Origin: an uncultured Prochlorococcus sp.
GTDB lineage: Bacteria > Cyanobacteriota > Cyanobacteriia > PCC-6307 > Cyanobiaceae
Assembly: GCA_902590775.1 (NCBI GenBank)
Contig: CACIYC010000004.1
Location: 1 to 64,000 of the forward strand
Reading direction: 5' to 3'
Length of the DNA: 64,000 bases
Shown here: piece after piece, positions 1 through 6,138 of the stretch
Position numbering within the stretch: position 1 is the stretch's first letter
Layout: the number at the start of each line of letters is the position of its first letter
Translations under genes and position numbers: made by a program
Notes under the pieces: model-generated
The model's database searches: none
Seen by the model: the letters and a program-made list of their open reading frames with translations, nothing else
Told to the model about the DNA's origin: nothing

Positions 1-169
1 TTTCTGGGTTGTAACGAGCCAACTCCCAAAGAGTGCTACCACCAGCCGCAAAGCAGATCAAGCCTGTATGTCCTACATGAGAGGCAATAAATCGGCCAGA
101 ACGGTTGGTAACCACAGAATTACCAGCCCACCATCCATAGGTAACTTCTGGATTTCCATAGGTCTGCAT
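1..169 (-). CDS. pcb: Chlorophyll a/b-binding antenna protein Pcb, N-terminal part (gene runs off the window start)
   Basis: Reverse complement begins [44 protein letters not shown], matching the N-termini of the two full pcb ORFs in the window. Confidence 0.93.
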
Positions 170-232
170 AATTTTTAAGCAATACAGGCAAATATCCAAT
201 GCAGATTACACTGTGCTCATTAGATATGCGCA

Positions 233-252
233 GAATAGTTAAAGGTCTTTAT
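233..252 (-). promoter_or_regulatory. Conserved element upstream of pcb (copy 1)
   Basis: GAATAGTTAAAGGTCTTTAT, 64 nt from the pcb start; near-identical copies at the same spacing upstream of the other two pcb genes. Confidence 0.6.
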
Positions 253-756
253 TTAGTTGGTAAGATTTTTTTTAATTCCTTAAAAAAAATCTGATACCCA
301 AAGTCTATTCCATTAAAATTTTCATGATAAGCATGAACAAGCAAGAGGACAGAAAAGACTGCACTGCAAGGCTTTACAAAGACAAGATAGAAAGATTTCA
401 AAAAAAAATGAACTAAAGGTGGCGTTTAAACATCAATTCAAAATAAAAAACTAAAAATAATAAGAAAATTATTAAGAAGTCAAATAAAGCTGAATTGCTA
501 AGAAAAAGAGAAGTGGAAAGCATCCATAAAAGCAGCTTCCTAAGAAAGAAAAATTATTTTTACTCATATAGACTAAAAAAACTCATGTATTCAATTAATA
601 GCCTTGAAAGAAAAACTTTTTAGTTGGATAAAAATTAAGAAGAACGAAATTATGAGCTTCTTCTATTGATTTAATTAATAGTAATGTCAAAAAAACAATC
701 TGCTACAAAGAAATCCTCATCTCTAGGCTATAACTGAGCTACTTTTCATTGGCTTG

Positions 757-969
757 ATGATTGATTTCTCGCATTTGCTGGATTTCGCAACACAACTACC
801 ACACCCATCAGATATAGGTTTAGTAAAGCCATCAGGTGGATTTCAACTGCTTCCACTCGTTTTTGGCATACTTGCAATAATTCAAGTATCTCAATTCCAT
901 TGGTACGCTAGAGACTGTAACGATCCAGAAAAGTTTGAAGGAACTGAAAGACAAAAATTATCACGTTAA
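757..969 (+). CDS. Small single-TM-like protein of the pcb-associated family (copy 1)
   Basis: MIDFSHLLDFATQLPHPSDIGLVKPSGGFQLLPLVFGILAIIQVSQF...; conserved N-terminal block shared with the copies at 2945 and 3286. ATG at 757; the ORF track starts at TTG 754. Confidence 0.8.
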   Translation: MIDFSHLLDFATQLPHPSDIGLVKPSGGFQLLPLVFGILAIIQVSQFHWYARDCNDPEKFEGTERQKLSR

Positions 970-1030
970 CCTCTCGGTAAAGAAAAATTCTTTCAACTCT
1001 AAGTTTGATTACTTAGAGAGTTCTAAAAAA

Positions 1031-1058
1031 AACAGAGCTAAGAACTCTGTTTTTTTTT
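1031..1058 (+). terminator. Rho-independent terminator after the small ORF
   Basis: ACAGAG..CTCTGT stem followed by a T run. Confidence 0.55.
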
Positions 1059-1064
1059 ATGCCT

Positions 1065-1099
1065 AAAAAAAGCCCCTATTTTAATAGGGGCTTTTTTTA
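1065..1099. terminator. Bidirectional terminator between the small ORF and pcb
   Basis: AAAAAAAGCCCCTATTTTAATAGGGGCTTTTTTT: GC stem flanked by A and T tracts, between convergent genes. Confidence 0.85.
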
Positions 1100-1148
1100 G
1101 ATAATTTTTAACTATTAATTTAATTATTAATAGAAAAAATAAGGGTCT

Positions 1149-2204
1149 TTAATTAGAAAGAGTCCTTGGAATACCAAATGGTCCAGTTCTATCTAGCAAT
1201 CTCTTGAAGTCAAAACCCATAGCTCGCAATGCATGCCAAAGATGACCTTGAATAAAGAAAAATCCAAGATAATAATGAACATTAACCAAAGCAGCTCTTG
1301 ATGTATGACCCAAGAAAGCAGTGCCTCCTGGAACTGTGTCTATCCAATAAGGAGCAATCCCAAACTTAAATTGAAGAACTTCGCCATACCAGGCCTCTGG
1401 ATAAACAGTGGTATTAGTAGCAGCCCAAAAAGCAGCTACGCATGCCATCCAGCCAATACCTGCTAAAGACCAAGAAAGAATTGCTTCTGCTGAAAGTAAT
1501 TCCTTACCCTTGAATTTTGTGTAAGTACCAATTTGCTTGGTTGCAATATGGAAAGCACCTCCTCCAAGCTGGAAGAAAGCTAAAAATGCATGGCCTCCCA
1601 TGACATCTTCAAGGCTATCAATAGCTAGGAAATCAAACTGATGATTCCAAATCTGAGTAAGGTCAAGATTGTAATTAACTTGACGTATTGCATCAACAGC
1701 AGGATCGTAAATTCCATGAATCCTGGCCCATTCAACGAACCAGATATTGGCAACACCAAAGAAAAGCAAATGATGTCCAAGAATAAAAGTCTGATTGTCT
1801 GGGTTATCCCATTCCAATTTGAACTTTCTTGCTTGTGGCACTTCAGAATCCTGCATATCTCCAGTGAAATATACGGAATGCAAAAGTCCTCCTCCCCCAT
1901 AAACCATGGAGAGAATTAAATGAAGTATCGCGATATTGGCAACACCAACACCTGTCCAGACTCCAGCTTCATCAAAGCCAATACCGACAGATGCTAAATG
2001 TGCAAGAAAAAGAGAACTCTGATGCCCCATTGGCAATGAAGGGTCAAATCCTGCTAGTTCAACAAGCGTGGCTGCACCGCACCCAAAGGCAATTAGTCCT
2101 GTATGAGCTGCATGAGCTGCAATGAATTTGCCTGAGCGGTTGGTGACTCCAGAATTACCAGCCCACCACCCGTAGGTGACGTTTGGGTTTCCGTAGGTCT
2201 GCAT
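1149..2204 (-). CDS. pcb: Chlorophyll a/b-binding antenna protein Pcb
   Basis: 351 aa, IsiA/CP43-like ([25 protein letters not shown]..., HLWHALRAMGFDF). Confidence 0.95.
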   Translation of the reverse strand: MQTYGNPNVTYGWWAGNSGVTNRSGKFIAAHAAHTGLIAFGCGAATLVELAGFDPSLPMGHQSSLFLAHLASVGIGFDEAGVWTGVGVANIAILHLILSMVYGGGGLLHSVYFTGDMQDSEVPQARKFKLEWDNPDNQTFILGHHLLFFGVANIWFVEWARIHGIYDPAVDAIRQVNYNLDLTQIWNHQFDFLAIDSLEDVMGGHAFLAFFQLGGGAFHIATKQIGTYTKFKGKELLSAEAILSWSLAGIGWMACVAAFWAATNTTVYPEAWYGEVLQFKFGIAPYWIDTVPGGTAFLGHTSRAALVNVHYYLGFFFIQGHLWHALRAMGFDFKRLLDRTGPFGIPRTLSN

Positions 2205-2270
2205 AATTTTTTTTGAGCGAAAAAGGCGCTATTCCCCATGAACACTACATGGTGCTCCCTTAATATGTAC

Positions 2271-2291
2271 GAAATAGTTAAAGGTCTTTAT
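2271..2291 (-). promoter_or_regulatory. Conserved element upstream of pcb (copy 2)
   Basis: GAAATAGTTAAAGGTCTTTAT, 67 nt from the pcb start. Confidence 0.6.
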
Positions 2292-2389
2292 GTAAGAGAA
2301 ATAAAAAAACATTTTTCAACATGCAAAGAGATGAGATTTTCTGTGCTCTTTATGTTTATCTATAAGGAAATTTTCCAACAAAATCTTAA

Positions 2390-2545
2390 TTCAATAATTT
2401 CACTGCTCACTCATCAGATTTATTAGCAACCATTACTGTTGGTGGTTTCAACCCACTTGCAGCAACTTTTGGAATAATCGCTTTCATTCAAGTAACTCAA
2501 TTCATTTACTATGGTTTTGATGCGAATGATCCTTCAAACGGTTAA
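2390..2545 (+). pseudogene. Decayed copy of the pcb-associated small protein family
   Basis: In-frame TAHSSDLLATITVGGFNPLAATFGIIAFIQVTQFIYYGFDANDPSNG*, resembling the copy at 757; the conserved N-terminus is degraded and no ATG follows the TAA at 2387-2389. Confidence 0.65.
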
Positions 2546-2578
2546 TCGTTTGATAAATCGCTAATTGCTTTTTCAATC

Positions 2579-2618
2579 AAAAAAAGCCCTGCTAAAATAT
2601 GGCAGGGCTTTTTTTTTT
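2579..2618. terminator. Rho-independent terminator
   Basis: AAAAAGCCCTGCTAAAATATGGCAGGGCTTTTTTTTTT. Confidence 0.85.
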
Positions 2619-2944
2619 GAAAAACAGAAATTTACTAGACAAGCAAGCGCTTAAATCAAATAAACAAATATCTTTGACCATGGCATCAATTAAGTTAAAA
2701 AAAAAGTCCCAAGCCTTATTAATACCCCTTCAAACAAACCCACTCGATTTGAATGCACTAAACAAGGTTTTTAATGATGATTAAAAAAGTTCGTCAATTT
2801 TTTAGCCCTAGCTAAAAGTCTTATTTATTTGTCAAACTTAGTAGAGTTTTCATCTCTCCCGTAAAGCTGTTGTAAAGTCATAGAACACGGGTTTGGCAAA
2901 GTGGCCACCTGGGTTATTTAGAGACAAACTTGCAATTCTACTCA

Positions 2945-3139
2945 ATGATTGATCCAACTCACTTAATTGATTTCGCTACACAATTGCCCCACCCATCTGA
3001 TATTGGAATCATTAAACCCTCAGGAGGGTTTAATTTTGTGGCAGCTCTATGTGGCTTAGGAGCATTTTTTGGTGCTTCTCAATTCTTCTATTATTCAGAC
3101 GATTCCAAGAGAATCGATCCTTGGGCAAAAAAAGATTGA
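2945..3139 (+). CDS. Small protein of the pcb-associated family (copy 2)
   Basis: MIDPTHLIDFATQLPHPSDIGIIKPSGGFNFVAALCGLGAFFGASQFFYYSDDSKRIDPWAKKD; the family alignment supports the internal ATG at 2945 over 2930. Confidence 0.82.
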   Translation: MIDPTHLIDFATQLPHPSDIGIIKPSGGFNFVAALCGLGAFFGASQFFYYSDDSKRIDPWAKKD

Positions 3140-3285
3140 TCGATTGTCTAAAGACAATTTAGAAAAATTTTTCCCATAAATTGTTCAAATCTAGTTTTGT
3201 AAATCCTTGATGAGTTAGAAAGTTCTGAAAGGAATTATAAAAATGGCCACCAACCAAACATCTAGACAACTTACACTTAAATTAA

Positions 3286-3453
3286 ATGATCGATCCATCA
3301 CACATTATTGATTTTGCAACTCAATTGCCGCATCCATCTGATATTGGACTAATTAAACCCTCAGGAGGATTTAATTTAGGTGCAGCATTAGCAGGATTAG
3401 GAGCATTTTTTGGTGCCTCTCAATTCTTCCTTTATGCAAATTCAAAAGATTAG
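3286..3453 (+). CDS. Small protein of the pcb-associated family (copy 3, 55 aa, not in ORF track)
   Basis: MIDPSHIIDFATQLPHPSDIGLIKPSGGFNLGAALAGLGAFFGASQFFLYANSKD*. Confidence 0.85.
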   Translation: MIDPSHIIDFATQLPHPSDIGLIKPSGGFNLGAALAGLGAFFGASQFFLYANSKD

Positions 3454-3507
3454 ATTCTCTAATTTATTTGTTATTCTTTTAATCAAGAATCACTAAAAAA
3501 TTCATCT

Positions 3508-3547
3508 AATAAAAAAGCCTCGCCATTATAGCGAGGCTTTTTTATTA
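3508..3547. terminator. Bidirectional terminator
   Basis: AATAAAAAAGCCTCGCCATTATAGCGAGGCTTTTTTATT between convergent genes. Confidence 0.87.
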
Positions 3548-3562
3548 GCTTGAGAAACTAAG

Positions 3563-4621
3563 TCATGAAGCAGCTGATTCTGTTAAACCACCTATTGCTT
3601 TGGCAATGCGTCTGAAATCAAATCCAAGCGCTCTTAAAGCATGCCATAAGTGACCCTGAAGACAGAAAAAAGCAAAATAGTATTGAACATTTACTAATGC
3701 TGCTCTTGTCGTATGTCCAAGGAAGTAATTGCAATCTGACACGTCACCCGTATCAGCCCAATAAGGAGAAATACCAAACTTGAATTCTAAAGGTTCTCCA
3801 TACCATTCAGTTGGATAAACGGTTGTATTAGAAGCAGCCCAAAATGCTGCTACTACACCCATCAAGAAAAGTCCAGCTAAAGACCATGACAAAACAGCTT
3901 CTGAAGAAAGAAGACCACTACCCTTAAATTTGGTGTATTCACCCAATTGTCGGGTTGCAATGTGAAATGCACCGCCACTGATTTGTAAGAAAGCCAAAAA
4001 GGCATGGCCACTCATTACATCTTCAAGGCTATCTATTTTTATGAAGTCAAATTGATGACCCCATACCATTCCAAAATCTCCGTATCCAGGGAAAACTGTT
4101 CGAACTGCTTCCACTGCTGGATCGTAAATTCCATGAACTCTGGCCCATTCAACAAACCAGATGTTTGCCACACCTAAGAAAATTAAATGGTGACCAAGGA
4201 TAAATGTCAAATTATCTGGGTTGTCCCATTCCAACTTGAATTTATCTACTCGACCGATTGGCCCACCTTGGAGATCTGGGTCAAAAAGTAATGAATGAGC
4301 TAATCCTGCTCCTCCATATACTAAAGAAAAAATGAGATGGAAAATTGCAATAGTTGCAACACCAGCTCCTGTCCATACTCCAGCTTCATCAAAGCCAATA
4401 CCTAATGAGGCCAAATGTGAAAGATATATTGAGCTTTGATGCCCCATTGAAACAGAGGGATCAAATCGAGAAAGTTCCCAAAGACAACTTGCACCAGTTG
4501 CGAAGCAAATAATTCCTGTGTGCCCAACATGAGATCCGATAAATCGTCCCGCACGGTTGGTTACTACAGAATTACCAACCCACCACCCGTAGGTGACATC
4601 TGGGTTTCCGTAGGTCTGCAT
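3563..4621 (-). CDS. pcb: Chlorophyll a/b-binding antenna protein Pcb
   Basis: 352 aa, same family as 1149-2204. Confidence 0.95.
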   Translation of the reverse strand: MQTYGNPDVTYGWWVGNSVVTNRAGRFIGSHVGHTGIICFATGASCLWELSRFDPSVSMGHQSSIYLSHLASLGIGFDEAGVWTGAGVATIAIFHLIFSLVYGGAGLAHSLLFDPDLQGGPIGRVDKFKLEWDNPDNLTFILGHHLIFLGVANIWFVEWARVHGIYDPAVEAVRTVFPGYGDFGMVWGHQFDFIKIDSLEDVMSGHAFLAFLQISGGAFHIATRQLGEYTKFKGSGLLSSEAVLSWSLAGLFLMGVVAAFWAASNTTVYPTEWYGEPLEFKFGISPYWADTGDVSDCNYFLGHTTRAALVNVQYYFAFFCLQGHLWHALRALGFDFRRIAKAIGGLTESAAS

Positions 4622-4686
4622 AATTTTTTTTGAGCGAAAAAGGCGCTAAACATGAAGAGATTACATGTTGCGGAATGGATATTGTC

Positions 4687-4707
4687 GGAATAGTTAGAGG
4701 TCTTTAT
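4687..4707 (-). promoter_or_regulatory. Conserved element upstream of pcb (copy 3)
   Basis: GGAATAGTTAGAGGTCTTTAT, 66 nt from the pcb start. Confidence 0.6.
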
Positions 4708-4729
4708 TTAAATAAAATATGAAAACCAA

Positions 4730-5224: not shown

Positions 5225-5434
5225 ATGACCTCATCATCCCAAAATCAAATAACAACTGAATCAGGAAATCGCCAGAACATGTTTCCAATTGAATCTCAGC
5301 CCGAATTAATTGAAAACTACTCTGGTTATATTGAGGAAGCTGAATTAGCGAATGGTCGTTGGGCAATGATTGGCTTCATAGCATTGCTTGGATCATATAT
5401 AACTACAGGTCAAATAATTCCAGGTATTTTCTAA
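5225..5434 (+). CDS. hli: High light-inducible protein (Hlip/Scp, one-helix Chl-binding-like)
   Basis: EEAELANGRWAMIGFIALLGSYITTGQIIPGIF: ExxNGRxAMxG signature. Confidence 0.93.
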   Translation: MTSSSQNQITTESGNRQNMFPIESQPELIENYSGYIEEAELANGRWAMIGFIALLGSYITTGQIIPGIF

Positions 5435-5808: not shown

Positions 5809-6138
5809 TTGCTAGATCCCATAAAACATCAAATCTTAGCGGCTTCATCAGCATGGGTAGCGGCCTTCTTAAACTTCCTCCCAGGGTTAGGAACAGGGTA
5901 TATATATCAAAGGAGATGGAAGGCTTACTGGATTACTACAACAATTTCAATTTGCTGGGTATATTTTGATTTCATAAGACAATTATCCTTAGATCCTTCA
6001 GATCCTGCGAATTCAGGCTCTGATTTAATTGGATTATTTGGATTGCTAGTTATTTCAACAGTCTCTGCATATGAAGCATTTTTAACTGTTAAGAAAGAAA
6101 GAGAAGTATCTACTAAGAAGTCAGGGGAAAGCAGCTAA
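5809..6138 (+). CDS. Hypothetical membrane protein
   Basis: 109 aa with hydrophobic segments; coding-like composition. Confidence 0.65.
   Translation: MLDPIKHQILAASSAWVAAFLNFLPGLGTGYIYQRRWKAYWITTTISICWVYFDFIRQLSLDPSDPANSGSDLIGLFGLLVISTVSAYEAFLTVKKEREVSTKKSGESS

Follow-up and report, generated by a model that had tools for sequence, protein, structure and literature searches.

Small membrane proteins encoded at the start of the window (the whole 64,000-nucleotide stretch of DNA analyzed, from an uncultured Prochlorococcus) belong, by sequence comparison, to an unnamed family of deep-living Prochlorococcus that is mostly encoded among pcb antenna genes. We put at about even odds (a probability near 0.5) the reading that these proteins are low-molecular-weight, mostly single-helix accessory subunits of Pcb antenna–photosystem complexes, specific to Prochlorococcus.

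The window opens contig C4 of a partial, Prochlorococcus-like genome (G000, 67% complete), and the pcb cluster at its start follows the gene order of SS120: pcbD (partial, minus strand), A (plus), pcbB (minus), D (plus, broken), B (plus), C (plus) and pcbH (minus). The full order recurs in locus L082 of genome G001, which we take to be SS120, and loci L071 and L075 share it, without type C. The letters B, D, E and H given to the pcb genes match the order of the SS120 accession numbers along G001 (PMC2644788). As the first-pass annotation had described, minus-strand pcb genes alternate here with plus-strand small ORFs. The pcb 5' end at 2–169 (minus strand; PF00421 match) is cut by the contig start and was assigned to pcbD by synteny with G001, the same order being found in L082, L071 and L075. 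The orthologues of pcbB (1149–2204) and pcbH (3563–4621), both antenna genes on the minus strand, scored 546 and 522 bits against TIGR03041, above its curated cut-off of 335 bits, and are 97% and 94% identical to the respective G001 copies. The plus-strand genes comprise type A1 (757–969; 70 aa, consisting of an N-module, one predicted transmembrane helix and a C-terminal helix), a broken copy of type D (2390–2545), type B (2945–3139; 64 aa), the most widely conserved type, and its tandem paralogue type C (3286–3453; 55 aa). In alignments and models, the window proteins fit the family as defined here, by an N-module of the form MID..H..DFATQLPHPSD[IL]G..KPSGGF followed by one or two predicted transmembrane helices.

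Terminators had been proposed to close each block of the array, and strong hairpins with T runs do follow type A (two adjacent hairpins at 1025–1100, terminator-like on both strands, between convergent A1 and pcbB), type D (about 2584–2620) and type C (a bidirectional terminator-like hairpin at 3506–3548, between convergent C and pcbH), but type B has none, so it may share a transcript with C. An ORF between D and B (2599–2784) showed no conservation in the loci examined. Just outside the cluster lies a Hlip-like ORF (EEAELANGRWAMIGFIALLGSYITTGQIIPGIF; window 5225–5434, plus strand).

A fifth family copy, A2, is located elsewhere in the same genome (G000:C8:8573), behind a pcbE orthologue. The sequence shows A2 beginning 18 nt downstream of the pcbE stop codon, in the same orientation and with no intervening hairpin, and an inverted repeat with a T run lies ~50 nt past the A2 stop; the pcbE–A2 arrangement recurs in nine genomes of the window's genus. 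Within one genome, A1 and A2 have 85–93% of their coding DNA in common, whereas their flanks are unrelated and their orientation to pcb differs. This limitation of the likeness to coding DNA implies that the coding sequence alone moved next to pcbE. The idea that pcb and small ORF were duplicated together as one unit was therefore abandoned, given the unrelated A1/A2 flanks and the tandem arrangement of B and C with no pcb between them.

Comparison of orthologues indicates that types A, B and C are genuine protein-coding genes under strong purifying selection. Differences between genomes fall mostly at silent sites, with median dN/dS values of 0.065 (A), 0.071 (B), 0.053 (C), 0.136 (D) and 0.090 (E), these being approximate NG86 estimates over the first 50 codons only, for orthologues from different genomes. 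Of the first 29 residues, 23 are identical across A, B and C of the window, in line with the nearly invariant common N-terminus reported initially. The family is present in 14 of the 14 genomes of the window's genus, which, together with median dN/dS of 0.05–0.14, argues against chance ORFs. The ORF at 2390–2545, at first called a remnant, is indeed degraded in the window genome, lacking an ATG and one base in the DNA alignment and producing a weak match in the search, but it represents a separate paralogue, type D, that is intact in relatives (L084, L038, L093, L075, L071 and L070), compared with which the window copy is one base short; G001 type D has lost its ATG as well.

Conserved blocks upstream of the small genes differ by type, each block being type-specific. 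The promoter-like block of type B (ACGGGTTTGGCAAAGTGGCCACCTGGGTTA; 2887–2916, plus strand) occurs once in each of 8 of the 13 genomes searched, and in every case its coordinates place it at the type-B gene. Many pcb genes are preceded by a conserved box, AATAAAGACCT[TC]TAACTATTC (e.g., window about 4685–4711 and 2270–2292, minus strand), and other pcb genes by a different block (..CTTACGGATGCTGAAC..). A promoter common to pcb and small genes was rejected because the upstream boxes differ, and a sigma-70 scan returned fewer sites than in shuffled sequences. Structured RNA was rejected as well, all Rfam matches being sub-threshold and mostly located on terminator hairpins. IsrR-like matches of ~32 bits (gathering score, 52) at window 1640–1811 and 4062–4228 (plus strand, antisense to pcb) probably reflect only the homology of pcb and isiA, IsrR being the antisense RNA of isiA.

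Physical linkage to pcb is pronounced. Across ten complete genomes, 23 of the 26 copies of types A–D have a pcb gene within 1 kb (chance for random positions, ~1%), comprising 5 of 7 copies of A, 10 of 10 of B, 3 of 3 of C and 5 of 6 of D. Type E, a two-helix form of about 106 aa, is the exception, with 0 of 6 copies within this distance in the same genomes; in some genomes its neighbors resemble rsmI and pnp. It carries the N-module in many low-light genomes, whereas its N-terminus is short in MIT1223 and genus g56.

The phyletic pattern follows the same line. A scan of genome contigs from 84,980 species with profile A1 yielded 76 loci, of which two come from a single MAG titled Synechococcaceae (AG-439-B13) and all others bear the title Prochlorococcus; the MAG title aside, the long-N-module form (…HPSDIG…KPSGGF) is confined to Prochlorococcus in that scan. 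In a 386-genome sample of the phylum, searched with a better profile, strong matches appeared only in Prochlorococcus-like genomes of the same taxonomic family. Profile A1 matches 90 of 400 genomes of that taxonomic family, and profile A3 adds one more. With pcb counted at E ≤ 1e-110 and up to five per genome, the small-protein family is carried by 76 of the 77 genomes with at least three pcb, by 13 of the 144 with one or two (131 lack it) and by 2 of the 179 with none (177 lack it), a co-occurrence built on a small number of independent gains and losses, the genomes being related. Altogether, 308 of the 323 genomes with fewer than three pcb lack the family, and the carriers in this group are nearly all incomplete assemblies. 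An expansion of pcb copy number is reported to have arisen in the LLVII grade, persisted in the later low-light clades and disappeared in the ancestor of the high-light strains (PMC11559063). The small-protein family tracks this reported expansion, to judge from its presence in MIT1300xe (G070), MIT1307xe (G064) and MIT1341xe (G043); it is also carried by MIT1223 (G016).

High-light genomes encode ORFs of 41–47 aa with the core [IF][AT][ILV]GGFxPxAA, and such a short-form ORF is also found in the window genome (G000:C5:33991–34122; L194 2992–3123, minus strand). A membrane ORF of 45–47 aa, M[ND][FL]L...GGFxPxAA..G....GPNLSKFD, occupies a conserved position in both low- and high-light Prochlorococcus genomes (L194, L195–L199) and has no Pfam match. 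It is apparently a distant relative of the small-protein family: in one profile comparison, the short form matched type D plus short E with E = 1.3e-9 over 24 columns, and profile A5 alone matched the short forms weakly (E 0.003–0.007). The short-form core sits at fixed, non-pcb loci, and its high-light hosts have few pcb; no match to the short form was detected in the LLIV-like or Synechococcus-like genomes sampled. If the two are homologous, the broader family would be shared by the Prochlorococcus that diverged after LLIV, with the long N-module and type D alone tracking the pcb-rich lineages. Further tiny membrane ORFs (..STPAPTAP.VGIA...LFA.VGV.VGPDYDG.NAP..), some in tandem, were seen in L202–L205 (G000:C5, G068 and G016); their kinship to the family is uncertain. 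Linkage of the small proteins to pcb, raised initially as a check, thus largely holds for types A–D, and the distribution follows pcb expansion, but it fails for type E and for the distant short forms of few-pcb high-light genomes; the persistence of the latter implies that the broader family is not strictly antenna-bound.

These unlinked forms bear on a rival explanation that we regard as somewhat unlikely, namely that the small proteins are subunits of photosystem cores (PSI, PSII, b6f or NDH-1) or general thylakoid proteins, whose closeness to pcb reflects a common low-light gene neighborhood. Type E and the short forms away from pcb, the latter in few-pcb high-light genomes with their related core at fixed non-pcb loci, are in keeping with it, as are small-gene promoters that differ from those of pcb and the Hlip-like ORF adjoining the window cluster (5225–5434). 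Such a neighborhood effect sits poorly, however, with the placement of A2 directly behind pcbE as coding sequence alone and with the tie of types A–D to pcb in 23 of 26 cases. Nor do Pfam, NCBIfam or the PDB reveal any likeness to known core subunits. Types A, B and C have no match in Pfam or NCBIfam at E ≤ 1; types D and E and the B form of MIT1300xe gave only sub-threshold chance hits there at E ≤ 10; PHROGs contained no match to the small proteins; and a PDB copy of 177,635 sequences returned nothing significant for a single sequence or for profiles A2 and A3. A known photosystem, b6f or other curated subunit was rejected on these grounds, which agrees with the initial impression that no named photosystem subunit was at hand.

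AlphaFold models of type A contain helices at residues 5–13, 31–54 (confident, pLDDT about 92) and 57–69 (weaker), with a loop after the first; the type-E model is poor. In A and B, the C side carries more lysines and arginines than the N side, so that, by the positive-inside rule, the N-terminus would lie outside the cytoplasm. Two residues, His16 of the N-module and Gln46 of the helix, hardly vary across 53 sequences and are possible pigment ligands, which would suit a second alternative, that the proteins help to regulate or turn over the antenna, for example by assisting its assembly or degradation or by carrying chlorophyll, and are not stoichiometric subunits. The separate conserved promoters would likewise suit conditional expression. 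Types A–E nevertheless lack the chlorophyll-binding ExxNGR signature of HLIPs and any chlorophyll a/b-binding Pfam match, and we consider this role improbable.

The N-module and the remainder of the protein appear to have separate histories. Up to GGF, types A and B are 82% identical, compared with 35% over the next 30 residues. In locus L134, an A-type N-module (100%) is followed by a D-type body (78%). AG-363-A16 has a type-B and a type-E gene ~13 kb apart (L138 and L124 around 5900–6090; contig QCFB01000003.1) that are nearly identical in promoter, in a ~98-nt leader and in the N-module, over about 70 nt at the start of the coding sequence, and diverge near the GGF junction. This pair looks like a recent gene conversion, a single-cell assembly artefact being possible. 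From these junctions we infer that the N-module recombines between different bodies. The N-module exchange between paralogues, this one recent case extending to the promoter, would fit small hydrophobic elements devoid of a photosynthetic role, such as toxin-like or selfish genes spreading by recombination in the pcb region, as would small size, a single helix, several paralogues and the decay of type D, but strong purifying selection, a near-invariant soluble N-module, synteny stable across genera and the lack of phage or viral copies make that explanation very improbable. A phage origin was rejected because neither viral contigs nor phage records contained a copy; no pcbB-type genes were found in viral contigs either.

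The accessory-subunit reading thus draws on purifying selection, linkage in 23 of 26 cases, A2 behind pcbE, co-occurrence with at least three pcb, the modular N-module, the single predicted transmembrane helix and the type-specific upstream blocks, and is weakened by promoters without the pcb box, by the unlinked type E and by the short forms of few-pcb high-light genomes. To observations on the genes themselves (their reality, selection, linkage, co-occurrence and modular structure), it adds a putative thylakoid location, binding partner and role. Each protein joins a strongly constrained N-module, consisting of a short helix and then a proline-rich loop (HPSDIG...KPSGGF), to one of several transmembrane bodies. 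The invariant N-module would dock on a common surface, of a Pcb or a photosystem core, and the variable helix and tail would suit a particular Pcb type or position. The small proteins could thereby aid assembly, spacing or holding of the several Pcb types deployed under dim light. A joint 2.8- to 3-fold rise of PcbE and PcbD followed azaserine in SS120 (PMC5451487). In the window's genus, both are among the pcb genes found beside or ahead of type-A copies, a coincidence that is suggestive only. A bolder version, which we hold to be unlikely, is that the family forms a docking-subunit kit for CP43-like antenna, new among Pcb/IsiA systems, in which a constant N-terminal clip is swapped among transmembrane bodies by recombination and each low-light Prochlorococcus attaches different Pcb to PSI and PSII with its own kit.

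The pcb neighbors of the small genes belong to the CP43-like Pcb antenna of the IsiA family (TIGR03041), and the nearest solved relatives of the window Pcb in the PDB copy searched are IsiA (6nwa, 6k33) and an antenna chain of 7ymi/7ymm. The small proteins themselves have no sequence likeness to Pcb, and no chain of a solved complex in that copy matches them. In size (40–106 aa), in their one or two helices and in the position of their genes near pigment-protein genes, they resemble small Psb, Psa and Pet subunits, from which they differ in being restricted to Prochlorococcus, in having several paralogues per genome with a common N-module and in matching no Pfam, NCBIfam or PDB entry. Hlips are likewise small, single-helix and multi-copy in Prochlorococcus, but types A–E have neither their ExxNGR motif nor a Pfam match. 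PufX and the protein W/Y type small polypeptides of purple-bacterial LH1-RC, which serve another antenna in another phylum, would be a functional parallel should the Prochlorococcus proteins shape or close antenna rings.

Low-light Prochlorococcus inhabits the deepest sunlit waters of the ocean, and for its Pcb antenna the PDB copy searched contains no close solved structure. With seven or eight Pcb types to be sorted to PSI and PSII, the small proteins are concrete candidates to look for in proteomes and cryo-EM maps, and the family illustrates how proteins of a streamlined genome evolve by swapping an N-terminal module.
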